Of a stretch of DNA of 64,000 bases, positions 2,930 to 60,017 are shown one piece after another. The position numbers and the translations under genes were made by a program. The stretch covers positions 8,718 through 72,717 of the forward strand of contig CALGNK010000017.1 of NCBI GenBank assembly GCA_937958695.1. Reading direction: 5' to 3'. This DNA is from an uncultured bacterium (lineage in GTDB: Bacteria; DUMJ01). Each line of letters opens with the position of its first letter. Position 1 is the first letter of the stretch. The notes under the pieces were generated by a model, which did no database searches, had not been told where the DNA came from, and saw only the letters and a program-made list of their open reading frames with translations.

Positions 2930-3715
2930 TTACATCAAGGATTTTAAAAACTTAGCTGTCTTTGGAAGCAGTTCATCTGGGTCACCCGGAATCCCACATT
3001 CTAATGTCATATAACCAGAGTATCCTTTCTCTTTTAAAACCTTAAAGGAGCTTGCAAAATCTGTATGTCCCATACCTGGAAGGAGCCTATTACTATCAGC
3101 TAGATGAATATGGGCTATAAGATCAATATTATTAGAGAGAGATTGAGGGATATTAGCCTCTTCTATATTCATGTGGAAAAAGTCCGCCATTATCTTTAAT
3201 CCTTTTCTATGAGTAGCATTTAATATCTCCTTAGCATCGTTTAGAGTTTTTACAAAATGGGTTTCATATCTATTTAAAGGCTCTAATAAAATATATGTAC
3301 CTTGAGAATATGCATATTCACCTAGTTCATTTAAGAGCTCAACGAGTAGTTTCTTTTCTAGCTCTAATACGTTCATAATAGGGGTAAGATCAGGCAGTTT
3401 AGGTGGACCAAAGATGGGAACTACAACTAGTCCTACAGCTTGTAAGTCAGCACATAAGGAGAGTAACTCTTTTATATCTCTAATAGCCTTACCTCTTTCA
3501 TCTTTATCGGGGTCAAGTAAACATCCACCATAACCAGAACAGATTGTGCTTACCTTTAAATCTCTACCCTTAAGTGCTATTTTCACCTCATCAATTCGCT
3601 CTTTCAAATTATTTCCCCAAAGCTCTATACCTTCAAATCCGAAGGATTCTAACTTTTCTACCTTTTCTTTAAGGTTAGAACCTTTAACCAGGTTCTCTTG
3701 ACAGGAAAGCTTCAT
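2930..3715 (-). CDS. Sugar phosphate isomerase/epimerase (AP-endonuclease-2 fold TIM barrel)
   Basis: A 261-residue TIM-barrel protein of the xylose-isomerase-like family that includes hydroxypyruvate isomerase, D-psicose/tagatose 3-epimerase and myo-inositol catabolic enzymes. The expected metal ligands are in place: E145 (in LLEPLNRYE), D178 (ADFFHM), H204 (HIHLADS) and E239 (TLECG). The NRYE segment resembles ketose 3-epimerases, but the true substrate cannot be read from the sequence. A GGGGAGGTG ribosome binding site precedes the ATG. It lies 25 bases after the UPF0210 gene and 10 bases before the ADP-ribosylglycohydrolase, in the tail of the aspartate-family operon. Confidence 0.8.
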   Translation of the reverse strand: MKLSCQENLVKGSNLKEKVEKLESFGFEGIELWGNNLKERIDEVKIALKGRDLKVSTICSGYGGCLLDPDKDERGKAIRDIKELLSLCADLQAVGLVVVPIFGPPKLPDLTPIMNVLELEKKLLVELLNELGEYAYSQGTYILLEPLNRYETHFVKTLNDAKEILNATHRKGLKIMADFFHMNIEEANIPQSLSNNIDLIAHIHLADSNRLLPGMGHTDFASSFKVLKEKGYSGYMTLECGIPGDPDELLPKTAKFLKSLM

Positions 3716-3740
3716 TTATACACCTCCCCAATATAGTTTT

Positions 3741-5099
3741 TTAGTTTCTATAACTAGTAAGAGGAGGAGGTATCCTTCCTCCACGTTTAAAGATATCTAT
3801 ACATGGTGTACTATTAACACTTATAATAGGTGCCCTACCTAAAAGACCTCCAAGTTCTACCCATTCCCCAGGTTTTCCTCCAGGGACAGGGAGTATTCTT
3901 ACCGCTGTGGTCTTATTATGCATAACACCTATAGCCATCTCGTCAAGTATAATTCCCATAAGTGTATATGGAGAGATATCTCCAGGTATTGGAATCATAT
4001 CAAGCCCAACAGAACACACATTTGTAAGTGACTCTAATTTCTCTAAAGTAAGGACACCCTTGCCAACCGCTTCAGCTATCCCCTTATCTTCGCTTACAGG
4101 AACAAATGTTCCACTCAAGCCTCCAACAGATGAAGAAGCCATTAAGCATCCCTTCTTTAGCGCATCGTTTAGAAGAAATAAAAGCCCGGTAGTACCTGGA
4201 GCCCCAAAGGTTTCGACGCCTATCCTTTCTATAATCCTGGCTACACTGTCTCCTTCTTCAGGAGTCGGAGCAAGCGAGATATCTACACTTACAGAATTTA
4301 TTCCTAGTCTACTTGCAATCTCCTTACCTATAAATTCACCAGATCTTGTTATCTTAAACGAAACCCTCTTTATCTCTTCTACAATAGATAGGATATCAGC
4401 GTCTTTTGGAAGTCTCTCTATAGCAGACCTTATAGTTCCAGGACCACTTATGCCAACATTTATAACCCTTTCTCCTCTCTTTATACCATGGAAGGCTCCT
4501 GCCATAAAAGGATTATCACCTGGAGGATTACAAAGGACGATCAATTTGGCACATACGATAGGTCTAGCCTTTATTCTAGCAGTTTCTAGTATTACATAAC
4601 TAGACTCTCTTATGGCATCTAGATTTATACCCGCCTTCGTTGTAGCAGTAACGATAGATGCGCAGAGCCTTTCTGTCTCATTTAGGATTATAGGAATCGA
4701 TTTTAAAAAGACTTTATCCGTAGAGGAAACTTCATATTCCAAAAAGCAGGTGTACCCCCCAATAAAATCTAACCCCACATCTAAGGCAAGTTTATCTAGC
4801 TCTTTAGCAAGGTGTATATAATCTTCTACATCTAGACTAGATATGAGTAGAGAAGCAGGTGTTATAGCAATTCTCTTATTCACTATAGGTATTCCATACT
4901 CTAGTTCTACTCTTTTTATAGTATCCAAAAAGCCTTCTGTAGCATTTAGTAGCTTCTCTCGTAGGCGCTTAATAGTTTCATCTACGCTGTCTCTTCTACA
5001 GTCTAACAGGTCAACGCCAAGTGTAACAGTTCTTATATCTAGATGCTCTATCTGTATCATCCTAATTGTTTCTAGTATCTCTTCGGTAGTAAATATCAT
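3741..5099 (-). CDS. UPF0210 (DUF711, PFL-like) family protein
   Basis: A 452-residue cytoplasmic protein of the UPF0210/DUF711 family, distantly related in fold to glycyl-radical enzymes but without an established reaction. Sequence support comes from overall length, the LVTLG-like start region, the long Gly-rich segments (GPGTIRSAIE, SSVGGLSGTFVPVSED, GAPGTTGLLF) and the end of the protein. The family is recurrently encoded next to a short UPF0237 ACT protein, exactly as here: the ACT gene ends three bases upstream. The placement in an aspartate-pathway operon suggests an amino-acid-related role, which is inference. Confidence 0.85.
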   Translation of the reverse strand: MIFTTEEILETIRMIQIEHLDIRTVTLGVDLLDCRRDSVDETIKRLREKLLNATEGFLDTIKRVELEYGIPIVNKRIAITPASLLISSLDVEDYIHLAKELDKLALDVGLDFIGGYTCFLEYEVSSTDKVFLKSIPIILNETERLCASIVTATTKAGINLDAIRESSYVILETARIKARPIVCAKLIVLCNPPGDNPFMAGAFHGIKRGERVINVGISGPGTIRSAIERLPKDADILSIVEEIKRVSFKITRSGEFIGKEIASRLGINSVSVDISLAPTPEEGDSVARIIERIGVETFGAPGTTGLLFLLNDALKKGCLMASSSVGGLSGTFVPVSEDKGIAEAVGKGVLTLEKLESLTNVCSVGLDMIPIPGDISPYTLMGIILDEMAIGVMHNKTTAVRILPVPGGKPGEWVELGGLLGRAPIISVNSTPCIDIFKRGGRIPPPLTSYRN

Positions 5100-5102
5100 A
5101 CC

Positions 5103-5372
5103 CTATATCCTATGCATGACCCTAAAGATCTCTTCTCTTTCAAAAGAGACCTTTACTTTGAGTCTTTCTCCTTCCTCTAAGAGCTTCTCTACCAGGGGAG
5201 TAATATCTTCTAGTTTAGTTATATCTACTAATAGAGCCATTACAAAAATGTCACCCATAATAGTTTGTGTTATGTCTAATATGTTAACTCCAAAATTAGC
5301 CAATACAGAGCTTATACCTGCCACTATACCTGTATGGTCTATCCCTGTTACCGTAATTATTGCCCTCTTCAA
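5103..5372 (-). CDS. ACT domain protein, UPF0237 family
   Basis: An 89-residue stand-alone ACT domain (ITVTGIDHTGIVAGISSVLA at the N terminus), the fold used for binding amino acids or other small ligands. It belongs to the UPF0237 type normally paired with UPF0210. It uses a TTG start (5370-5372) directly after the lysC stop, with GGAGAGGAA upstream as ribosome binding site; no ATG is available in frame nearby. Lying between lysC and the UPF0210 gene, it is likely a ligand-sensing partner of the UPF0210 protein; the ligand is unknown. Confidence 0.88.
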   Translation of the reverse strand: MKRAIITVTGIDHTGIVAGISSVLANFGVNILDITQTIMGDIFVMALLVDITKLEDITPLVEKLLEEGERLKVKVSFEREEIFRVMHRI

Positions 5373-6587
5373 TTATTCCTCTCCAAGACCAAATCCGTCG
5401 TGTAGAACAATTACAGCCCTTTCTACGTCATCCTCGTTTATTATACATCCAATCTTTATCTCTGATGTGGATATCATATCTATATTTATACCTGCTTCAC
5501 CTAAAAGCCCAAACATCTTTGCTGCTATCCCAGGGGTGCTTTGTATCCCAACACCAACAATGGATACCTTACCAACTTTCTTATTGCAAGATACTTCTCT
5601 TATGCCTAGCTCTCTCTTTACATTTTCTAATATCTCTAATGCCCTATCCACATCGTCTATGGGGATTGTAAATGATATATCTGTATAACCAGACTCACTG
5701 GCATTTTGAATAATGTCATCCACATTTATACCAACGTCTCCTAACGGCTTAAATATCTTGTGGGCTATCCCTGGTTTATCTAGGACATGTTTCAATGTTA
5801 TCTTTGCTATATCTTTCCTATGAGCAATACCTCTAACTCTGCTTACTGGTTCCATCTCATTTACCTCCTGTATAATAGTTCCTGGCTCATCCTCAAAGGA
5901 AGATTTTACCTCTATCTTCATATTGTAGATCCACCCTAATTCTACTGCTCTATTATGCATAACTCTAGCTCCTTGGCTGGCAAGTTCTAACATTTCTTCA
6001 TAAGAAATTACATCGAGTTTTTTTGCATTTTTCACTATCCTAGGGTCTGCGGTATATATGCCTTTTACATCGGTAAATATCTCTGTTTTTTCTACCTCTA
6101 AAGCTATTCCAAGGGCAACAGCGGTTGTATCAGAACCTCCTCTTCCTAAGGTTGTTATATCGTTCTGATCACATATCCCTTGAAAACCAGCCACAACTAC
6201 AATTTTACCTTTCTTCAATTCTTCTTTTATCCTTGTTGGGTCAACGGACTTTATCCTAGCCCTACCAGCGTTTTCATCTGTATATATACCTGCCTGCCAT
6301 CCAGTTAGAGAAATAGCAGGTATACCTATGTCCTCCAAAGCCATAGCCATAAGTGCTCCTGAAATCTGTTCTCCGGTTGACATAAGGGCATCCAATTCTC
6401 TAGGAGAAGGTCTTTTAGAAATCTTTTTAGCTAGATCTATCAATTCATCTGTTGTATCACCCATAGCGGAGACTACTACAACAAGATCATTCCCCGCTTC
6501 TTTTAATCTTGCCAACTTCTTAGCGATATTCTTTATCCTGTCTATCGTTCCTACAGAGCTTCCTCCATACTTATGAACTAGAAGCAT
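5373..6587 (-). CDS. lysC: Aspartate kinase
   Basis: Aspartate kinase (404 residues) phosphorylates aspartate, the first step to lysine, threonine and methionine. The kinase domain is recognisable by KYGGSSVG (6-13), the TTLGRGGSD loop (145-153) and FTDVKGIYTADPR (171-183). Two ACT repeats follow (about 260-330 and 340-400), so it should be feedback regulated by an end-product amino acid; which one cannot be told by eye. Length matches monofunctional LysC of Gram-positive bacteria. It is preceded by asd with a nine-base gap and followed directly by the ACT protein, consistent with one operon. Confidence 0.96.
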   Translation of the reverse strand: MLLVHKYGGSSVGTIDRIKNIAKKLARLKEAGNDLVVVVSAMGDTTDELIDLAKKISKRPSPRELDALMSTGEQISGALMAMALEDIGIPAISLTGWQAGIYTDENAGRARIKSVDPTRIKEELKKGKIVVVAGFQGICDQNDITTLGRGGSDTTAVALGIALEVEKTEIFTDVKGIYTADPRIVKNAKKLDVISYEEMLELASQGARVMHNRAVELGWIYNMKIEVKSSFEDEPGTIIQEVNEMEPVSRVRGIAHRKDIAKITLKHVLDKPGIAHKIFKPLGDVGINVDDIIQNASESGYTDISFTIPIDDVDRALEILENVKRELGIREVSCNKKVGKVSIVGVGIQSTPGIAAKMFGLLGEAGINIDMISTSEIKIGCIINEDDVERAVIVLHDGFGLGEE

Positions 6588-50178: not shown

Positions 50179-50237
50179 TTAGAGTTTTAGTTTCTATAGG
50201 AAATAGATTCCAGATCCATTTTTGTAGTAGAGTTATT

Positions 50238-50256
50238 TTGATATAATGAATATCAA
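50238..50256 (+). promoter_or_regulatory. Extended -10 promoter with inverted repeat, first solute-binding protein
   Basis: TGA-TATAAT (50239-50247) sits inside the inverted repeat TTGATAT-AATGA-ATATCAA (50238-50256), about 60 bases before the gene. A repressor or activator bound here would cover the -10, suggesting substrate-controlled expression. Confidence 0.5.
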
Positions 50257-50305
50257 AGTAGTTTTTTGATGGATTATAAATTTTAATTAAGGAGGTTAGA
50301 GAAAG

Positions 50306-52222
50306 ATGAAAAGATTGCTAGTATTTTTGCTTGTCTTTAGTTTACTGTCAAGTGTAATGTTTAGTTTCAATTCTATTTCTTTTGCTCAGAAAAAGTACAG
50401 TGAAGCTCCAATGCTGGCAGAATTGGTAAGGCAGGGTAAGCTTCCACCTGTAGAAAAAAGAATTCCTGAGAATCCTTTTATAGTTGGTCCAGGCGTATTA
50501 ATAACTAGGACAGATCTTCCCGATTGGAAAGTGGGTAGATATGGAGGAACAATAAGAACTGCTCATTCTGTGGCGGATTGGGCTCCAGATATATTTGTTA
50601 TGAACAATGAGCATCTACTTAGTACACCTGGAATTGGTCTTGGAAAGCTTTGGGATCCTCCAACTATTCGTGGCGGTATTAGGGGAAATATCGTAGAAAG
50701 TTTTGATGTTAAAGAGAGTAGAATCTTTACATTCAAGTTAAGAAAGGGGCTAAAATGGTCTGATGGACAACCAGTAACCACTGAAGACATTAGGTTCACT
50801 TATGAAGATGTATTGATGAATGATAAGCTTACCCCTGTTTTCCCCGCCAGGTTTAGAGTTGGTAACAGTTTAAAAGGGGAGCCAATGAAATTAAACATAG
50901 TAGATGAGTATACCTTCCAGCTTATATTTCCTAAACCTTATGGAGCCTTCCTAGAGATTCTTACTGGTATAATAGGTTGGATGGGATATACTGATCTATT
51001 AAAGCCAGCTCATTATCTAAAGCAGTTCCATATAAAGTATACTCCTCTTGAAAAGCTAAAGCCATTATTAGAAAAAGAAGGCTTCAAAGACGAATGGTGG
51101 CAGTTATTTAATCTTAAAGACTTTACCAACTGGGAACAAACTCAGGCAAAAAGCATCGGTTTTCCTGTACTTACCCCTTGGATGTTGGTGAAAGCCTCTG
51201 GCGGAGTGTATGAGTATGAGAGAAATCCATACTACTTTAAAGTAGATACAGCTGGAAATCAACTACCATATATAGATAGGATTGTTTCTACCCAAGTCCA
51301 AGACGTAGAAATGGTCAATATGAGAGTATTAACTGGAGATATAGATTTCCTAAGGGAAAGTGCTTCTCTAGTAAAGATTCCTCTCTATAAACAGAATGAA
51401 GAAAAGGGCGGATTTAGAACTGTTATATTAGACTTACATAATGATCCAAGTGCTGTATTTATAAATCTTACCTATAAAGATCAAATATGGCGTAAGATAG
51501 TGCAAGATGTAAGATTTAGAAAGGCTATAAGTATGGCTATAAATCGTAAAGAGATTATAGACAGCGTTTACTATGGATTTGCCTCCTTCTCTGAAACTGT
51601 CCCCAGCTCTTATAATGTGAGTGAAGCTAACAAAATCTTAGATCAAGTTGGATTAGATAAAAAGGATTCCGAAGGATTTAGACTTAGACCAGATGGAAAA
51701 AGATTTGAAATGCTTATTGAATGTGGAGCCCAAGCTCCTGACCTCTTACCTGTAGGGGAACTTATTGTTGAACATCTTAAGGCTGTTGGTATAAAAGCGA
51801 CATTGAAGAGAATAGACCCACAGTTATATGGCCAAAGATGGAGTGCTAACGAAATACAGGTTGGTCTTCTCTGGTGTCATGGTCCTGGAGAGGTCAATAG
51901 ATACACAACGGGTGCTATACGTGCTCCGGAGTGGACCAGATGGATTAATACTGATGGTAAAGAAGGCGAAGAACCACCCTTATGGATAAAAAAGGCGATT
52001 GAGATAGATGCAAAGAGATGGCAAAGTATTACCGGTTCTGACGAATATGTAAAACTTTGGAGAGAAGGTATTGCTTGGCATAAACAATATTTGCCCCTTA
52101 TTACCATAGTAGAAAGGGCAAAACAACCCCTTATAGTTTCAGCTAAGATGAGGAATATTCCACGTTCTGGATTTGCTATTGCAGCTAACTTCTCTGCTGA
52201 ACAGTTTTTCTATGAAAAGTAA
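50306..52222 (+). CDS. ABC transporter substrate-binding protein, family 5
   Basis: A 638-residue secreted solute-binding protein of the SBP_bac_5 (peptide/nickel/oligosaccharide) family. A signal peptide (about 1-27) is followed by an unusual lead region (EAPMLAELVRQGKLPPVEKR) seen in the second copy as well, then the family signature GLKWSDGQPVTTEDIRFTYED and RKAISMAINRKEI. Strong GGAGG ribosome binding site. No permease or ATPase gene is nearby. It is followed 11 bases later by an alkaline-phosphatase-superfamily hydrolase, implying a shared substrate. Confidence 0.92.
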   Translation: MKRLLVFLLVFSLLSSVMFSFNSISFAQKKYSEAPMLAELVRQGKLPPVEKRIPENPFIVGPGVLITRTDLPDWKVGRYGGTIRTAHSVADWAPDIFVMNNEHLLSTPGIGLGKLWDPPTIRGGIRGNIVESFDVKESRIFTFKLRKGLKWSDGQPVTTEDIRFTYEDVLMNDKLTPVFPARFRVGNSLKGEPMKLNIVDEYTFQLIFPKPYGAFLEILTGIIGWMGYTDLLKPAHYLKQFHIKYTPLEKLKPLLEKEGFKDEWWQLFNLKDFTNWEQTQAKSIGFPVLTPWMLVKASGGVYEYERNPYYFKVDTAGNQLPYIDRIVSTQVQDVEMVNMRVLTGDIDFLRESASLVKIPLYKQNEEKGGFRTVILDLHNDPSAVFINLTYKDQIWRKIVQDVRFRKAISMAINRKEIIDSVYYGFASFSETVPSSYNVSEANKILDQVGLDKKDSEGFRLRPDGKRFEMLIECGAQAPDLLPVGELIVEHLKAVGIKATLKRIDPQLYGQRWSANEIQVGLLWCHGPGEVNRYTTGAIRAPEWTRWINTDGKEGEEPPLWIKKAIEIDAKRWQSITGSDEYVKLWREGIAWHKQYLPLITIVERAKQPLIVSAKMRNIPRSGFAIAANFSAEQFFYEK

Positions 52223-52233
52223 GGAGGACTATA

Positions 52234-53583
52234 TTGAAGGTACTATTTATTGTAATAGATACACTAAGGGCAGACCATCTTAGTTGTTATGGCTATAAGT
52301 TTGAAACTAGCCCTAATATAGATAGATTAGCTAATGGGGGAATTATATTTGATAATGCTATTGCTAATGGGATTCCTACATCACCTGGATTTACAACTAT
52401 ATTCACCGGACTGCATAGCATTACTCATAGAATAGTTTCACACGGTAGTCTAGATTTTATAGATGCTTCTACACCTCTTTTACCAGAGATCCTTAGAGAT
52501 AATGGTTTTAGGACTTGTGCGGTAGATAATTTGTTTAATATAAAGCCTTACTTTGCAAGAGGATACGAGTATTATATAAATCCAAGGAGTAAGAACATAC
52601 ATCACATAAGTGCAGAACAGATAAATGCTGAGGCAATAAGATGGCTTAAAGAGCATTATAGAGAGGATTTCTTTTTATTCATACACTATTGGGACTGTCA
52701 CACCCCTTATCTACCACCAGAAGAGTATAGGACTATGTTTTATAAAGGTAGAGATCCATTTGATCCAGATAATCATAGTATGGACCAAGCAAAAGAACAG
52801 ATTCCATATCCGTTTTTTAAAAAGTGGCACTATGACTTATTAGGTAACCCTACAGATGCTAAATACATAATATCCCATTATGATGGAGCTATAAGATATG
52901 TAGATCTTGCAGTTGGGGAAATACTAGAGACCTTCAAAAAACTTGATATATATGATGATACACTTATTGTGCTAACTGCAGACCATGGAGAAAATATGAC
53001 TGAACATAACTTCTTCTTTGACCATCAAGGGTTATATGAACCAACCATCCATATACCACTTGTCGTTAAGTTCGCAAAAGAGTCTTATTCAAATAGAATC
53101 AATCCTATAGTTCAACATATGGACATAACACCTACTGTGTTAGATATCCTTGGCATAAGAACTAATAAACAGTTTGATGGAAAGTCTCTATTGCCTCTTA
53201 TTAAGGGTGAGGTAGATAAAATCTATGATGAGGTAATATCTACCGAATGTACTTGGAGAGCTGGTGTATCTATAAGGACTGAAGATTGGAAATTAATAAA
53301 GACTATAGACCAAGGACTATACTCTACCCCTCCCATTGAGCTATTTAATCTAAAGGAAGACCCCGAGGAAAAGATAAATCTATATGAAAGAGAGAAAGAT
53401 ATTAGAGATGGGCTTGAATTAAGATTATCTAGATGGCTTGATGACAAGTTAAAGAATAGACCTGATCCAATTAGAGTTCAAGCAGAAAAAGGTCTTCCGG
53501 CTAAGAGATGGGTTGAAAATGTATTAAAAGATATGCATATAGATTGGGAGGATTGGATTTCAAATAGACAGAGATTCATATAG
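52234..53583 (+). CDS. Sulfatase-fold hydrolase with Thr nucleophile (alkaline phosphatase superfamily)
   Basis: A 449-residue cytoplasmic protein matching the Pfam sulfatase pattern (VIDTLRADHLSCYGY start; metal residues D9, D250, H251, and H264 in FFDHQGLYE). At the position of the formylglycine Cys/Ser of CxPxR there is Thr49 in PTSPGFTTIFTG, and the Arg is Phe. It therefore cannot be a formylglycine sulfatase; a Thr nucleophile points to a phosphodiesterase, phosphomonoesterase or phosphotransferase-type activity. TTG start behind GGAGGAC. Cotranscribed with the solute-binding protein. Confidence 0.85.
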   Translation: MKVLFIVIDTLRADHLSCYGYKFETSPNIDRLANGGIIFDNAIANGIPTSPGFTTIFTGLHSITHRIVSHGSLDFIDASTPLLPEILRDNGFRTCAVDNLFNIKPYFARGYEYYINPRSKNIHHISAEQINAEAIRWLKEHYREDFFLFIHYWDCHTPYLPPEEYRTMFYKGRDPFDPDNHSMDQAKEQIPYPFFKKWHYDLLGNPTDAKYIISHYDGAIRYVDLAVGEILETFKKLDIYDDTLIVLTADHGENMTEHNFFFDHQGLYEPTIHIPLVVKFAKESYSNRINPIVQHMDITPTVLDILGIRTNKQFDGKSLLPLIKGEVDKIYDEVISTECTWRAGVSIRTEDWKLIKTIDQGLYSTPPIELFNLKEDPEEKINLYEREKDIRDGLELRLSRWLDDKLKNRPDPIRVQAEKGLPAKRWVENVLKDMHIDWEDWISNRQRFI

Positions 53584-53606
53584 AGGGCAGGATCCCCTGC
53601 CCTCTA
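53581..53606. terminator. Hairpin covering both convergent stop codons
   Basis: A perfect 11-base stem, TAGAGGGCAGG / CCTGCCCTCTA with loop ATCC. The left arm begins with the plus-strand TAG stop, the right arm ends with the minus-strand stop. No T tract follows on either side, so it may act as an RNA 3' stabiliser or a weak bidirectional terminator. Confidence 0.65.
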
Positions 53607-54611
53607 TATGTCATCTACACTTACTACTCTACCTGTATCTAAAGATCTAATTGCTGCCTCTATAACTATCTGTGCAGAAAGCCCTTCTTCCCCAGAACCA
53701 TCAATTTCTTCCGGCTTAACCCCATCTAGTATCTCTCTGAGGAATGTATTGATCCTATCTCTAAATGTATCATTAAAATCTCGAAAACCTCCAAAGACAG
53801 GATTAGTATAAACTCTTTTTTCTAAGTCTCCTGCCGGATATAAGACCGCTTCTCTCCACATATCTTCTATAACTAATCTTCCCTTAGTTCCAGCCACCTC
53901 ACAACGTTCCATAGGATGGCCACGTTCTATATCATAACTACTAGTCAAATGTCCTACTGCTCCATTCTTGAATTTTACATTGATAGAAGCTGTGGACCAG
54001 ATTGTTCTTCCAGGTGCTTTCATAGCAAAACATTGAACCTTTTCGATAGGTCCTCCCCAATACTGCATTATATTTACTGAATGTGGATTCAGCGCCTTAA
54101 GATGATAATAGGGAGATTCAAAATCTTGGAACTTACCAATCCACAAAGACATATTTATAAAGAGAAGGTCTCCTATTCTACCTTCATCAAACCATCTCTT
54201 AGCTATTCTAAATGCGGGTGTAAACCTATGATTAAGATTTATTCCAAAACAGAGACTTTTCTCTTTTGCAAAAGCCACCATCTCTCTAGCCTTTGCTATA
54301 TCGTTACATATAGGTTTTTCGCATAAAACATGGCATCCATAAGATAGAGCTAATATTGTAGGTTCATAATGGTCACTGCTATACTCATATCCACCAGTAG
54401 TAACGCTACATACATCTGGAGATAGCTTCTCTAACATTTCTTTAGCATCTAAGAAATATGGAACTCCTAACCTCTTCCCTGCCCTTTCAGCCCTTTCTGG
54501 AATAATATCACAAACCCCAACAAGTTCTGCATAGTCACTGGATTTATATACATCAGCATGAATATTACCAATAGGACCCATCCCTATGATGGCAACTCTT
54601 AACTTCCCCAT
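53604..54611 (-). CDS. Gfo/Idh/MocA-family oxidoreductase
   Basis: A 335-residue NAD(P)-dependent dehydrogenase of the MocA/inositol dehydrogenase family. Rossmann motif GMGPIGNIHADV, the family EKP motif (CEKPICN) and HRFTPAFRIAKRW are present. It is a paralogue of the gene at 56840. Likely oxidises a sugar or cyclitol in the same pathway as the isomerase and hydrolase upstream. AAAGGTGG precedes the ATG. Confidence 0.92.
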   Translation of the reverse strand: MGKLRVAIIGMGPIGNIHADVYKSSDYAELVGVCDIIPERAERAGKRLGVPYFLDAKEMLEKLSPDVCSVTTGGYEYSSDHYEPTILALSYGCHVLCEKPICNDIAKAREMVAFAKEKSLCFGINLNHRFTPAFRIAKRWFDEGRIGDLLFINMSLWIGKFQDFESPYYHLKALNPHSVNIMQYWGGPIEKVQCFAMKAPGRTIWSTASINVKFKNGAVGHLTSSYDIERGHPMERCEVAGTKGRLVIEDMWREAVLYPAGDLEKRVYTNPVFGGFRDFNDTFRDRINTFLREILDGVKPEEIDGSGEEGLSAQIVIEAAIRSLDTGRVVSVDDI

Positions 54612-54621
54612 ATTTCCACCT

Positions 54622-56028
54622 TTACTGTCCTTTCTTTGCCTTTTCCTCCAATAGTGCCTGTATCCTTTTGGCTGCCTCTGGTGAACCTATATGTAATGTA
54701 TCATAAGCTTCTTGAGAAGACTTAAATGGCCCTTTACCTTCGATTCCGTGCCAATCTAAGTTAGTGTATATAGGATTTGGTCTTCCTGTTTCATCTTCTC
54801 TTTTCTTTATATGATCCTGCATCCTAGCTTCTAAAAACTTTACTACCTCAGGTTCTTCCTCTGCAAGGTTATGATTCTCTTCTGGATCTTTTATAAGATT
54901 GTAGAGTTCTATCTCTGGTTTAAAGTGGAAGTCGGGTTCAAGGGCATGAATTAACTTCCATTCTGGGGTCCGCCACCCATGTTTACGCATCCAGGTACAC
55001 TCTGTTATATAGAATTCTGGTTCCTGTTTTATCTTTTTCCCTTCCATAAGAGGAACTAGGTCTCTGCCGTCAAATTTTATATCAGCGTCTATCCCTAAAA
55101 GATCTAGAATTGTGGGCATTATATCTTTTAACTGTGTATAATCAGTAAAAATCTTACCTTTAGGGACCTTCTTTGAAAATTTAAATATGAGAGGAACCCT
55201 TAAGGTACATTCATAGAGTCCATGATGGTCAAAGTAGCAATCATGGTCATAGAGTGTTTCTCCATGGTCAGAGGTAACAATAACTAATGTATTGTCCTCT
55301 ATTCCTAGATATTCAATAGTGGTGAATATATTTTTAATACAGGCATCCATATAAGCTATAGCTCCATCATACTGAGCTATAATGTAGTCCTTATCTGTAC
55401 AGCCAGGAGGAAACCATGTTAAGAAGTAATCTCGGAAAGGTTTGAATTCATATACAGGTTTTAAAGATTCATTATTAGGATCGAATTCGTCACCATCATA
55501 GAACATCCTTTCAAAAGGACTTGGTGGTAGATAAGGAGAATGTGGGTCCATATGTCTTAAAAATAGAAAGAAAGGTTGTGCTTCTTTGGCTAATCTTTTT
55601 AATTCTGGGATAGCTACTGCATTTAGATTTTCCGCTTTATGGCTTCTTCCCTCAGCCCAAGAACCCCAACCTTCGTATTGTAAGTAATTGTGAAAACCTC
55701 TAGATGCGGGATTTCCTTTAAATCCTACACAGGTTGTAGTATATCCATACCGTGCTAATATTTCTGGTAGTGTGACAACTCCTTCAGCTAAGTCTCCTTT
55801 GTGTCTAAGAGCAACAACATTAGTGCCGAAAACATCTAACCCTGTTAACATATTGGCATATCCAGAAGTTGTAGGAATATGAGGGCTGAATGTATATAGA
55901 AAAGTTGTCCCTTCTTTGGCAAATTTGTCGATATGAGGAGTAGTTAATTTGTGGTAGCCATAGAGACTCATATGGTCCGCTCTTAGACTATCTATCCCTA
56001 TAAGTATAAGATTAGGTCTATCTGACAT
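54622..56028 (-). CDS. Sulfatase-fold hydrolase with Thr nucleophile (second copy)
   Basis: A 468-residue paralogue of the hydrolase at 52234. The start LIGIDSLRADHMSLYGY, SDHGE and CYFDHHGLYE metal motifs are kept. The nucleophile position is Thr53 in PTTSGYANMLTG; no Cys/Ser-x-Pro-x-Arg motif exists. As with the first copy, a phosphoester rather than sulfate ester substrate is more likely. It has a 25-residue charged C-terminal extension the first copy lacks. AGGAGG ribosome binding site. Confidence 0.85.
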   Translation of the reverse strand: MSDRPNLILIGIDSLRADHMSLYGYHKLTTPHIDKFAKEGTTFLYTFSPHIPTTSGYANMLTGLDVFGTNVVALRHKGDLAEGVVTLPEILARYGYTTTCVGFKGNPASRGFHNYLQYEGWGSWAEGRSHKAENLNAVAIPELKRLAKEAQPFFLFLRHMDPHSPYLPPSPFERMFYDGDEFDPNNESLKPVYEFKPFRDYFLTWFPPGCTDKDYIIAQYDGAIAYMDACIKNIFTTIEYLGIEDNTLVIVTSDHGETLYDHDCYFDHHGLYECTLRVPLIFKFSKKVPKGKIFTDYTQLKDIMPTILDLLGIDADIKFDGRDLVPLMEGKKIKQEPEFYITECTWMRKHGWRTPEWKLIHALEPDFHFKPEIELYNLIKDPEENHNLAEEEPEVVKFLEARMQDHIKKREDETGRPNPIYTNLDWHGIEGKGPFKSSQEAYDTLHIGSPEAAKRIQALLEEKAKKGQ

Positions 56029-56037
56029 ATTAACCTC

Positions 56038-56838
56038 CTATCTCACTCCTATATATTTGAATATTGCATTTAGGTATCCATAACTTTCAGAGGCTATAGC
56101 TACTACTTCAGGTAGAGGTAATTGTAAAGCTCCTATTACTTCTAGACATATAGGTCCAGAATAGCCTCCATCGACTAGATTTTTACAAAAAGCCATAAGA
56201 TTTATATCTCCTCTACCACAAACCTGCATGAAGGGAGATCCAGGTCCTGAAGTCCTACCTTTACAATCCCTTATATGTATGTGTCTTACCCTTGGAAGTA
56301 CTTTTAGAACCGCATCCTCTGGATTTTCCCCAGACCTATATATATGACTTGGGTCCATATCTATACCAAAGGATTTAGAGTCTATCTTGCTCATCGCATA
56401 GAGTGTGGTTGGAGTATTATATATGGCACTGCCAACATGAGCCTTCACACAGAGAATTACTCCATAATCTTTTGCCTTTTCTGACATCTTCTTAAGCTTT
56501 GTTATAGAATTTTCTAAATCTTCAGGGACATCAGATTTCCCGCCAGGACCGACATTTACAATAGGAATTCCTAACTCAGCACTAGCCTCAAAGGCTTTAA
56601 TAAGTCTATCCTCATCTAAAGATGCTACTTCCATAGAAAGTATCTTTAGTCCATTCTCTTCTACTATGCGTTTTATCTCGTCTTTTTGTTCTCTCCAGCT
56701 ATCTAGCACAAGGTGTTCACACATCCCCTTTATAGCGGATATCTCTACCCCATCATAACCGGCTAACTTTATATATCTACATGCGGTAGCAAAATCAAAA
56801 CCACCAAAGAGTACTGAATTTACACCTAATTCTATCAT
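56038..56838 (-). CDS. Sugar phosphate isomerase/epimerase (TIM barrel)
   Basis: A 266-residue xylose-isomerase-like TIM barrel, family of IolE/hydroxypyruvate isomerase/ketose epimerases. Candidate metal ligands are the Asp of GIDMDPSH, the His of HIHIRD and the Glu of CLEVIG; where the first Glu ligand is expected there is Lys (LCVKAHVG), a variant seen in MocA-linked members. ATG 56838 is chosen since the TTG at 56850 lies within the GAGGAGG site. Follows the MocA gene by one base. Confidence 0.85.
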   Translation of the reverse strand: MIELGVNSVLFGGFDFATACRYIKLAGYDGVEISAIKGMCEHLVLDSWREQKDEIKRIVEENGLKILSMEVASLDEDRLIKAFEASAELGIPIVNVGPGGKSDVPEDLENSITKLKKMSEKAKDYGVILCVKAHVGSAIYNTPTTLYAMSKIDSKSFGIDMDPSHIYRSGENPEDAVLKVLPRVRHIHIRDCKGRTSGPGSPFMQVCGRGDINLMAFCKNLVDGGYSGPICLEVIGALQLPLPEVVAIASESYGYLNAIFKYIGVR

Positions 56839-56839
56839 A

Positions 56840-57844
56840 TTAAAATTCAACCTCCTCTACTTCAACTATGCTCCCGGTCTCCCAGGATTTTATAGCTGCT
56901 TCTATTATGAGTTGGGCTTTTAATCCATCAAGACCAGAGCCATCTATCTCTTCATAGCTCGCCCCACTAGAAAGTTGATCTATCCAAACACCAATCCTAT
57001 CTTTAAATGTCTCACTAAAAGACCTCATACCACCAAGGTAGTTATAGGTCTCAGACTCTATGCTAAACCTATTATAGAAGTGTAGATGTTCACATGCCTC
57101 TTCTAAGACAAATCTCCCCTTTGAACCTACCACTTCACAACGTTCAAGCCCAAAAGCACCACCAGCATCATAACTACCTGTAAGTGTCCCTATTACTCCA
57201 TTTTTAAATTCGAGTAATACCTGTGTATTTGACCATATAGTCCTGCCTTCTCCTTTTTTCATAAAAGCTACAACTCTTTTAACATCTCCACAGAAATATC
57301 TCATCACATCAAAAGAATGTGGATGAAGAGCCCTCAAATGAAACCAGGGAGAAGACTCATTAGGATTATTAATCCACATACGCATATTAATCATATTTAT
57401 AGAACCAAGTCTTCCTTCTTCGACCCATTGCTTTGCCCTTCTAGCAGCAGGAGTAAATCTATGATTTAGGTTTATAGCATAAGGAATCTTCTTTTTTCTA
57501 GCCAATGCTACCATCTGTTTTGCCTCTTCTATATTGTTTGATATTGGTTTCTCTCCCAATACTGCTATGCCAGCCTCAAGCAATTCCATCGTAGGGATAA
57601 AGTGATCTCCACCGTTCTCTTTCCCAGCAGTAGTTACACTACATGCATCTAAATGAATTCCACTGGCTAGCATCTCTTTTACACTATAAAATGCCTTAGC
57701 CCCATACCTTTCTGCTGCCCTATCTGCTCTCTCCTTAATGATGTCGCATACAGCTACAAGCTCAACCTTTGGATTTTCCTTGTAGACCTGAGCATGGATA
57801 TTACCTATATTTCCCATCCCAACTATACCAATTTTTAATGTCAT
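56840..57844 (-). CDS. Gfo/Idh/MocA-family oxidoreductase (second copy)
   Basis: A 334-residue dehydrogenase closely related to the one at 53604: GMGNIGNIHAQV, GEKPISN and HRFTPAARRAKQW match position for position. Two paralogues in one pathway suggest consecutive oxidation/reduction steps, as in inositol or keto-sugar catabolism. AAAAGGAGGG precedes the ATG; an attenuator-like terminator separates it from the solute-binding protein gene. Confidence 0.92.
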   Translation of the reverse strand: MTLKIGIVGMGNIGNIHAQVYKENPKVELVAVCDIIKERADRAAERYGAKAFYSVKEMLASGIHLDACSVTTAGKENGGDHFIPTMELLEAGIAVLGEKPISNNIEEAKQMVALARKKKIPYAINLNHRFTPAARRAKQWVEEGRLGSINMINMRMWINNPNESSPWFHLRALHPHSFDVMRYFCGDVKRVVAFMKKGEGRTIWSNTQVLLEFKNGVIGTLTGSYDAGGAFGLERCEVVGSKGRFVLEEACEHLHFYNRFSIESETYNYLGGMRSFSETFKDRIGVWIDQLSSGASYEEIDGSGLDGLKAQLIIEAAIKSWETGSIVEVEEVEF

Positions 57845-57867
57845 AAACTTTCCCTCCTTTTATGTAA

Positions 57868-57922
57868 GGTTTAAAAATTAAAAACCCCCTTACAGGTTAT
57901 GTCTTCTTTCTACCTGCAAGGG
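57868..57922 (-). terminator. Terminator/attenuator between solute-binding protein and catabolic genes
   Basis: Minus-strand stem CCCTTGCAGGT / ACCTGTAAGGG (11 pairs with one G-U), a 14-base loop, then GGTTTTTAATTTTT. Located 24 bases after the solute-binding protein stop, it would let that gene be expressed above the downstream enzymes. Confidence 0.8.
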
Positions 57923-57945
57923 AGCTATGAAACATAAATCTACTC

Positions 57946-59844
57946 TTACTTCTCAAAGAATGATTGTTCTACGTACATATTAGCAGCTATCGCTTGACCT
58001 GAACGTGGAACATTTTTTAGATTTGCGGGAGTTATTAAAACATATTTTGCCCTCTCTACTATAGGGAAGTAATAGACGTTATCATAGTATAGCTTATACA
58101 TCTCATTGGTAAGCCTTACATCTTGAGTAGAATAAGGTATAGCGGAAAGTCTACCTTCGTGAATCTTGTAGAGACGTTTTATATCTGCAGGAGGCTCTTC
58201 TCCCTCTTTTCCGTTTGTAGAATACCACCTTGCCCACTGGGGAGCCCACTGCGAAGTGGGTAGGTAATCTGTCCATGTTCCATCTTTCCACATGGGTTGG
58301 ACACTCCATATCACACATGCCTGAGCCTCATTTGCTGCTAGTCTCTGGCCCCATAAAGATGGATCTATTCTCTTAAGGGAAACCTTAAGTCCTATCGACT
58401 TTAGATGCTCCGTAACTAGCTCGGCTGCTGGCATTAAATCGGGAGCGTGTGCTCCAGATTCAATAAGAATTTCAAAGACTTTTCCATCTGGTCCTAATCT
58501 CCATCCATCAGGACCTCTCTTTAAGCCTATTTCATCTAAGAGCTGTTCTGCTTTAGTAGGGTTATACTCACTAGGAACAGTCTTAGGCAATGAAGCAAAA
58601 CCATAGTAAACACTGTCTATAATCTCTTTACGATTTATAGCCATATTTATCGCTCTTCTGAATCTTACGTCTTGGACTACTTTTCTCCATACAGGGTCTT
58701 TATAAGTTAGATTTAGGTATACAGCACTAGGATCAACATGCATTTCTAAAAGAGAAACCTTATAACCAGCTTTCTTTTCATTCTGCTTATATAGCGGAAG
58801 CTTAATTAAGGCGGTGCTCTCTCTAAGGAAGTTTACCTCTCCTGTTAAAACCCTCATATTTGCCATCTCTGCATCTTGGACTTGTGTGGATATAATCTTA
58901 TCTACATACGGCAGTTGATTTCCGGCAGTATCCACTTTAAAGTAATATGGATTTCTCTCCCATTCGTAAACTCCACCAGAGGCTTTTACTAATATCCAAG
59001 GAGTAAGTACAGGAAAACCGATACTTTTTGCCTGGGTTTGTTCCCAATTAGTAAAATCTTTAAGATGAAATAACTGCCACCATTCGTCTTTGAAGCCCTC
59101 TTTTTCCAATAAAGGCTTTAGTTTTTCAAGAGGAGTATACTTTATATGGAACTGCTTTAGATAATGTGAAGGTTTTATCAAGTCTGTATATCCACTCCAA
59201 CCCTTTACTGTTATTTCTCTGAGAAAGCCTCCATAAGGTTCCCTAAAGGATATTCTGAAAGAGTATTTATCTAAAATCTCTAATTTCATTGGTTCTCCGT
59301 CAGGTCTACCACCACTTTTAAATTTAGATGGAAAAACTGGAGCTAACTTGTCATTTAAAAATATGTCCTCATAAGTAAATCTAATATCTTCAGTGGTTAC
59401 TGGTTGACCATCAGACCACTTTAACCCTTCCCTCAATCTAAAGGTAAAAACCTTATTATCTTTACTTATTTCAAACTTCTCTACTATATTGGGTTTCATA
59501 TCCTTTACTCCTATACCCGGAGCAACAAGTAGATTTTCAGTGCAATTAGCAATAAAGACGTCGGGTGACCAATCTGCAGTCACATGAACTGCCTTTAAAA
59601 CCCCGCCGTATTTACCCACTTGCCAATCTGGAAGGTCTTTCTTAGAGATTAATACACCTGGTCCTACTACAAATGGATTTTTGGGAAGCCTCTCTTCTAC
59701 CGGTGGTAATTTCCCCTGTTTGACAAGCTCTGCTAATTGAGGTGCCTCATTATACTTTTTTTGAGCAAAAGAAAGATTAGAAAAACCTAAGAATAAACTA
59801 GCCACTAAAGTAGTTATCACTATCAATCCTAAAAATCTTCTCAT
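57946..59844 (-). CDS. ABC transporter substrate-binding protein, family 5 (second copy)
   Basis: A 632-residue secreted paralogue of the protein at 50306, with signal peptide (about 1-27), the same EAPQLAELVKQGKLPPVEER lead and the family motif GLKWSDGQPVTTEDIRFTYED. The middle (about 220-330) is nearly identical to the first copy while the N-terminal 120 residues differ more. No permease genes are adjacent. First gene of the minus-strand catabolic operon with a leader of about 140 bases. Confidence 0.92.
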   Translation of the reverse strand: MRRFLGLIVITTLVASLFLGFSNLSFAQKKYNEAPQLAELVKQGKLPPVEERLPKNPFVVGPGVLISKKDLPDWQVGKYGGVLKAVHVTADWSPDVFIANCTENLLVAPGIGVKDMKPNIVEKFEISKDNKVFTFRLREGLKWSDGQPVTTEDIRFTYEDIFLNDKLAPVFPSKFKSGGRPDGEPMKLEILDKYSFRISFREPYGGFLREITVKGWSGYTDLIKPSHYLKQFHIKYTPLEKLKPLLEKEGFKDEWWQLFHLKDFTNWEQTQAKSIGFPVLTPWILVKASGGVYEWERNPYYFKVDTAGNQLPYVDKIISTQVQDAEMANMRVLTGEVNFLRESTALIKLPLYKQNEKKAGYKVSLLEMHVDPSAVYLNLTYKDPVWRKVVQDVRFRRAINMAINRKEIIDSVYYGFASLPKTVPSEYNPTKAEQLLDEIGLKRGPDGWRLGPDGKVFEILIESGAHAPDLMPAAELVTEHLKSIGLKVSLKRIDPSLWGQRLAANEAQACVIWSVQPMWKDGTWTDYLPTSQWAPQWARWYSTNGKEGEEPPADIKRLYKIHEGRLSAIPYSTQDVRLTNEMYKLYYDNVYYFPIVERAKYVLITPANLKNVPRSGQAIAANMYVEQSFFEK

Positions 59845-59989: not shown

Positions 59990-60017
59990 ATTATAGAATA
60001 CTATGTATAATTGTCAA
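59990..60017 (-). promoter_or_regulatory. Promoter of the second solute-binding protein operon
   Basis: Minus-strand TTGACA (60012-60017), a 16-base spacer and TATAAT (59990-59995). The 5' leader to the start at 59844 would be about 140 bases, without a recognised riboswitch or open reading frame of note. Confidence 0.75.

Follow-up and report, generated by a model that had tools for sequence, protein, structure and literature searches.

What substrate, and what chemistry, could bring together two solute-binding proteins (SBPs), two hydrolases, two dehydrogenases and an isomerase-like protein at positions 50306-59844 of the 64,000-nucleotide stretch analyzed here (the window, from contig C17 of a 2.09-Mb, 57-contig genome, G000)? 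An initial annotation, made from the sequence alone, saw in this region a single mirrored locus for the uptake and degradation of an esterified polyol or sugar. The best explanation we can offer, as a tentative one, is that the locus is a cassette that removes an ester from an imported sugar and then carries out an oxidation, an elimination and a reduction.

Two operons gained or lost together

The region is occupied by seven intact open reading frames (ORFs) that form two convergent operons:

50306..52222, plus strand: SBPplus, family-5 solute-binding protein, 638 aa (PF00496, E 4e-49; N-terminal signal-like stretch)
52234..53583, plus strand: SulfA, sulfatase-fold hydrolase, 449 aa (PF00884, E 5e-48; Thr at the formylglycine position, PTSPGF)
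53604..54611, minus strand: MocA1, Gfo/Idh/MocA oxidoreductase, 335 aa (Pfam; conserved motifs)
54622..56028, minus strand: SulfB, sulfatase-fold hydrolase, 468 aa (Pfam; invariant T53, D13, D254 and H255; model pLDDT 90.5)
56038..56850, minus strand: Isom, AP_endonuc_2 TIM barrel, 270 aa (Pfam; Lys136 replaces the first metal Glu; model pLDDT 96.7)
56840..57844, minus strand: MocA2, Gfo/Idh/MocA oxidoreductase, 334 aa (Pfam; 11-base overlap with Isom)
57946..59844, minus strand: SBPminus, family-5 solute-binding protein, 632 aa (PF00496, E 8e-54)

All seven ORFs are open at the positions first proposed for them, and the Pfam matches, each above its cut-off, agree with the families first assigned (two SBP_bac_5, two Sulfatase, two GFO_IDH_MocA and one AP_endonuc_2). 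The plus-strand operon consists of SBPplus followed by SulfA, while the minus-strand operon is transcribed in the order SBPminus, MocA2, Isom, SulfB and MocA1; a family-5 solute-binding protein heads each of them. The mirrored arrangement that had been proposed is borne out by the paralog pairs across the locus, with identities of 62% for SBPplus and SBPminus, 39% for SulfA and SulfB and 48% for MocA1 and MocA2.

The search for relatives returned two congeners only (G001 and G002), every other genome being related at the level of "same domain", and no SulfB match was obtained in either congener at 1e-100. The segment absent from G001 is exactly the two operons, a 9.9-kb block with clean edges. 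The flanks of the block are kept in G001 at 84-85% DNA identity, and there ~40 bases, holding just a hairpin, separate the end of a Cys/Met lyase gene from galK. For G002, no close galK marks the site, and contig C181 (locus L128) ends inside an SBPminus ortholog of which the first ~180 residues are present. Upstream of this ortholog, C181 carries an IS110-like transposase and a LacI-type regulator.

The two operons were gained or lost together and behave as one unit, and the patchy spread of the block favors gain over loss. The initial view of the region as one locus is thereby upheld, by the presence and absence of the block in a congener and by the conservation of the enzyme set in ~80 genomes. 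It is very unlikely that the operons are coincidental neighbors, acquired separately, facing each other by chance and serving different substrates. SulfA is indeed rarely found with the module elsewhere (at least 40% identity only in L058), but the joint absence from G001 with clean edges, the closely related binding proteins at the start of both operons and the paralogous hydrolases within them all argue for a single unit. The cassette is conserved and mobile-looking and, as we suggest with some hesitation, accessory and catabolic.

Conservation of the enzyme module

Among GTDB species genomes, a similarity scan found 110 relatives of SulfB, of which the best 80, at 60-74% identity, were kept; these come from Bacillota, Lentisphaerota, Chloroflexota, Armatimonadota, Planctomycetota, Verrucomicrobiota and Sumerlaeota. 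Gene order was counted for the 44 SulfB loci flanked on each side by 3.5 kb or more, with neighbors detected by tblastn. These counts, which come from one similarity scan, include near-identical gut metagenome-assembled genomes and depend on how far the contigs reach, placed Isom (at least 50% identity) in 39 of the 44 loci, MocA1 (at least 52% identity) likewise in 39, and both in 34, so that the three proteins recur as neighbors at 50-74% identity. The initial annotation had called for a search for the same gene set in other genomes, and the order Isom-SulfB-MocA1 is indeed kept across phyla: 26 of the 44 loci have Isom-SulfB-MocA1 followed by a MocA2-like gene, and 5 have the MocA2-Isom-SulfB-MocA1 order of the window. 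The cultured Oligosphaera ethanolica DSM 24202 (L054) carries SulfB and MocA1. Since the identity of the MocA2-like gene to MocA2 is mostly just 35-42%, it could encode a different enzyme.

Pairwise divergence of Isom, SulfB and MocA1 was correlated (r 0.81-0.83, with none of 999 permutations as high), although a shared species history would by itself produce part of this correlation. The SulfB tree places the window in a well-supported group that mixes Chloroflexota, Lentisphaerota, Armatimonadota and others and is separate from the 48 Bacillota rows. Recurrent neighbors among the 80 loci were a third MocA gene (27 loci), an AraC regulator (27), a Cys-type sulfatase (18), a second AP_endonuc_2 gene (15), Sulfotransfer_3 (14), GH18 (11), sugar or Opp permeases (10) and CysD (6). 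Neighbor clusters 3, 6 and 7, on the opposite strand of known genes, were rejected as antisense artefacts.

Two gene rows were noted beside these counts. A cytosolic-looking GH18 protein with an intact DGIDLDWEYP motif is encoded inside the module, directly after SulfB, in rumen and gut Oscillospiraceae (L075-L094), which hints at an N-acetylhexosamine-containing substrate there. On contig C24 of the window's own genome (L114, 8945-14389), genes for a glycosidase-like protein, a ROK protein, a MocA protein, a Cys-type sulfatase and an AP_endonuc_2 protein stand in a row, with the same logic as the module but with a Cys-type sulfatase.

A putative route, its residues and its rivals

In the route we propose, SBPplus and SBPminus would bind a small esterified saccharide or glycoside extracellularly and pass it to an Opp-type importer encoded elsewhere, as suggested by a binding protein on contig C35 with 80% identity. 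SulfB would next remove a phosphoester-type substituent in the cytosol, with SulfA acting likewise on a related group, and the conserved residues point to a single metal and to Thr as the nucleophile. The chemistry of the families suggests that one MocA protein would then use NAD to oxidize a sugar hydroxyl to a ketone, that Isom would use this ketone to eliminate or isomerize a neighboring bond, and that the other MocA protein would reduce the product to a common sugar, in a levoglucosan-like manner. The layout resembles the levoglucosan pathway with ester removal added.

SulfB has the S1 sulfatase fold and the residues of its single-metal site, but neither SulfB (T53...Y57) nor SulfA (PTSPGF) carries the [C/S]-x-P-x-R maturation motif. 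T53 occupies the formylglycine position in 77 of 77 SulfB orthologs, the motif Arg is replaced by Tyr (Y57) in the same 77, and D13, D254 and H255 never vary. At the positions that align, by eye, with the sulfatase GKxH motif, SulfB keeps neither the Lys nor the His. The SulfB model matched sulfatases and phosphonate monoester hydrolases (PMHs) at Z 32-36, with rmsd ~3-4 Å and 20-27% identity. Within the alkaline phosphatase superfamily, the PMH/arylsulfatase branch (2W8S, 4UPH and EfAS 9KOQ) shares the fold of SulfB (Z 32-34) and the Asp/nucleophile/Asp-His metal set, whereas its nucleophile is a Cys-derived formylglycine and SulfB has Thr and no motif Arg. D13, T53, D254 and H255 match the Mn site of EfAS, formed by D20, C61, D311 and H312, an enzyme that cleaves sulfates, phosphates and phosphonates (PMC12421950). 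The authors of the sulfatase classification point out that no Thr is known to yield formylglycine, and they advise against naming such proteins sulfatases without proof (PMC5066984). The genome encodes a sulfatase maturase and also Cys-type sulfatases, which the maturase fits, rather than SulfA and SulfB. SulfB should not be a formylglycine sulfatase, and because Thr stands at the nucleophile position and the formylglycine motif is lost, a phosphoester-type hydrolase is likelier. The first description of the hydrolases as phosphoesterase-like thus draws support at the level of residues. Elsewhere in the genome, contig C46 (L112, 190-20000) encodes an importer and six sulfatase-fold proteins, two of them Cys-type and four Thr-type, the latter keeping P-x-R or x-x-R (PTLPTR, PTGPFR, PTVPNR and PTIPVR).

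The neighborhoods of SulfB raise another reading, in which the module makes or remodels a sulfated saccharide, with a PAPS-dependent sulfotransferase and sulfate-activating genes present in relatives, and SulfB acts on the sulfated compound or its precursor. We judge this quite unlikely. The Sulfotransfer_3 genes of 14 of the 80 loci, several of them between SulfB and MocA1, speak for it, and some of the loci that hold them (L033-L035 and L038-L040) are the window's closest neighbors in the tree; so do CysD in 6 loci, the Cys-type sulfatases in 18, and L064 (2973-8992), where genes for APS kinase, CysD, CysN and a sulfotransferase are adjacent to one another and beside the module. Set against this, the window's genome gave no Sulfotransfer_3 match, and SulfB has neither the Cys and Arg of the sulfatase motif nor, by eye, the Lys and His of GKxH. 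Sulfotransferase and importer genes never occurred together among the 80 loci, which with 14 and 10 loci may be chance. In relatives, the pathway may involve a sulfate ester and, because the operons of close relatives often carry a sulfotransferase, we added sulfated sugars, absent from the initial list, to the candidate substrates. A 639-aa type I phosphodiesterase is also encoded beside the module in L064.

The proposed elimination would fall to Isom. In a profile alignment to IolI, K136 replaces the first metal Glu, and Lys is found at this position in 67 of 67 aligned members of the Isom family. Glu is kept in other AP_endonuc_2 proteins, among them the second barrel of related loci and three proteins from the same genome, and 15 related loci pair a Lys-type barrel with a second, Glu-type TIM barrel. 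Judged by spacing and profile position, D166, H192, E237 and H138 of Isom correspond approximately to D163, H189, E233 and the catalytic H134 of the 3-keto-glycoside beta-eliminase AtOGE (8BVK). Isom resembles AtOGE and the C-glycoside eliminase (CGE) DgpB-DgpC in its fold and in having, at roughly equivalent positions, the Asp, His and Glu metal residues and the catalytic His; the first metal ligand, however, is His in AtOGE, Glu in CGE and Lys in all Isom members, and the similarity of Isom to AtOGE is low (8BVK, E 3e-5). Isomerases and epimerases are the best fold matches of the Isom model, and DgpB-DgpC follows a few Z units below them. These matches are what would commend an epimerization or isomerization without bond cleavage, in which one MocA protein oxidizes a polyol or sugar, Isom isomerizes the ketone, the other MocA protein reduces it, and the hydrolases merely free the sugar from its ester. 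The nearest folds are 3-epimerases, IolE and related isomerases, at close scores, but the first metal Glu that these epimerases need is the very residue that is Lys in all 67 members, and we consider such a route unlikely.

MocA1 and MocA2 have the NAD-binding and C-terminal domains, the EKP Lys and the catalytic His of the Gfo/Idh/MocA family, and in MocA1 the EKP motif and the His of ALxPH are invariant in 57 orthologs. In the MocA proteins here, Ala stands four residues before the catalytic His, a place occupied by Asp in IDH. Phospho-inositols were among the substrates put forward initially, and catabolism of phospho-inositol or glycerophospho-inositol, with a MocA protein as inositol dehydrogenase and Isom as inosose dehydratase, would be in keeping with TIGR04380 (inositol 2-dehydrogenase) as the top NCBIfam match for both MocA proteins and with IolE and IolI among the distant relatives of Isom. 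The scores are nevertheless far below the cut-offs (113 and 130 against 355 for the iolG model, 35 against 290 for iolE), the genome gave no match to inositol-1-phosphate synthase and a single KduI/IolB-superfamily match on another contig, and no iolC/D-like neighbor was seen in the conserved module. This candidate is weakened by these results, and we hold it to be highly improbable.

The levoglucosan comparison fits in part. The Lgd set consists of LgdA, LgdB1, LgdB2 and LgdC, which carry out oxidation, beta-elimination, hydration and reduction; the eliminase LgdB1 is not Mn-dependent and LgdB2 is (PMC7676230). As in the window, Gfo/Idh/MocA oxidation and reduction surround AP_endonuc_2-type barrel enzymes; the Lgd genes lie beside an ABC importer, and their presence varies between strains. 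Lgd is, however, a four-enzyme pathway without sulfatase-fold hydrolases and with two AP_endonuc_2 proteins, where the window encodes two MocA proteins and a single barrel, with Lys at the metal Glu. The MocA proteins score 60 and 63 bits against the cut-off of 650 for levoglucosan dehydrogenase (NF052479), and none of the levoglucosan dehydrogenase homologs in 20 module-holding genomes reaches the family cut-off; several of those homologs adjoin TIM barrels that have Glu. Literature searches by family names found no described pathway with the exact gene set. The initial statement that no pathway could be named therefore stands for the exact set and gives way for its core, which resembles the levoglucosan and 3-keto-glycoside beta-elimination routes (PMC7676230, PMC10628242).

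Several points weigh against the sequence of ester removal, oxidation, elimination and reduction that we prefer. A sulfotransferase in the operons of the closest relatives is unexpected for a purely degradative pathway, importers lie near only 10 of the 80 SulfB loci, and G041 has SulfB with no Isom or MocA nearby. The window has no second TIM barrel, and a hydratase step would need another gene. The E-x-H arrangement of Isom occurs in ordinary AP_endonuc_2 proteins too, conserved residues do not prove chemistry, and the fold ranking sets epimerases at or above eliminases, with close scores that do not separate the classes. Nor did we find a characterized precedent, open to testing, for the Lys substitution. 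We regard it as rather unlikely that the module represents a widespread undescribed route, in which a Thr-dependent sulfatase-fold enzyme would remove the ester and a metal-independent Lys TIM-barrel eliminase, flanked by two dehydrogenases, would cleave the sugar without a glycosidase.

Transport, putative control elements and significance

The ORFs listed near the locus include no permease or ATPase gene, and contig C17 has no BPD_transp_1 permease, so the uptake locus proposed initially has its two binding proteins and is an incomplete importer by itself. Contig C35 encodes a binding protein that shares 80% identity with SBPplus and 66% with SBPminus and adjoins its own permease pair, which is ~95% identical to the pair of a G001 importer that has an ATPase. 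The block differs from such Opp-type importers in having neither permease nor ATPase, and in the simplest reading the C35 importer may serve both of its binding proteins. In an Anaerolineae genome (L063), the enzyme module adjoins a complete Opp importer, the SBP of which shares 39% identity with SBPminus. SBP_bac_5 matches numbered 44 in G000 and ~50 in each congener; across G000 (for example C35, C43, C3 and C50), G001 and G002, genomes of 2.1-2.4 Mb hold ~44-54 family-5 SBPs and fewer Opp-type permease pairs.

Four putative control elements lie in or near the block:

50237..50257, no strand assigned: perfect inverted repeat TTTGATAT-N5-ATATCAAA overlapping TATAAT, upstream of SBPplus (found in the sequence)
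53580..53607, no strand assigned: 12-bp perfect stem with a 4-base loop, between the convergent operons (read from the sequence)
57885..57922, minus strand: hairpin followed by a T-run, between SBPminus and MocA2 (read from the sequence)
59990..60017, minus strand: TTGACA-16-TATAAT promoter-like site upstream of SBPminus (12/12 consensus positions)

The inverted repeat looks operator-like and is the sole exact match in the window; since the 3 matches at up to three mismatches compare with 1.85 expected, only the exact match is notable. The 12-bp stem is a probable terminator common to both operons, and the hairpin at 57885-57922 could act as an attenuator or partial terminator. No Rfam family was found in the locus. 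The regions upstream of SBPplus and SBPminus share no motif (12 bases with 1 mismatch, 16 with 3), which leaves co-regulation without sequence support.

Two observations concern other loci. At 2930-5688 of the window, genes for an AP_endonuc_2 protein and an ADP-ribosylglycohydrolase-like protein and a large conserved gene adjoin threonine/lysine pathway genes. In G002 (L130, 4576-7869), ribonucleotide reductase is seemingly split by an intein-like insert with homing-endonuclease-like sequence.

The module occurs in gut Clostridia, Lentisphaerota, Armatimonadota, Chloroflexota and a deep-branching lineage, and we found no pathway assigned to it. SulfA and SulfB are of the type of hydrolase that databases misname as sulfatases (PMC5066984), an annotation that a substrate would correct. 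Judged from sequence, the pathway resembles known oxidation-elimination-reduction routes and would be set apart from them by two unusual invariant residues. With this conserved Thr and Lys, a handful of purified proteins would be enough to test the claim, and the identity of the substrate could define a further non-hydrolytic sugar pathway.

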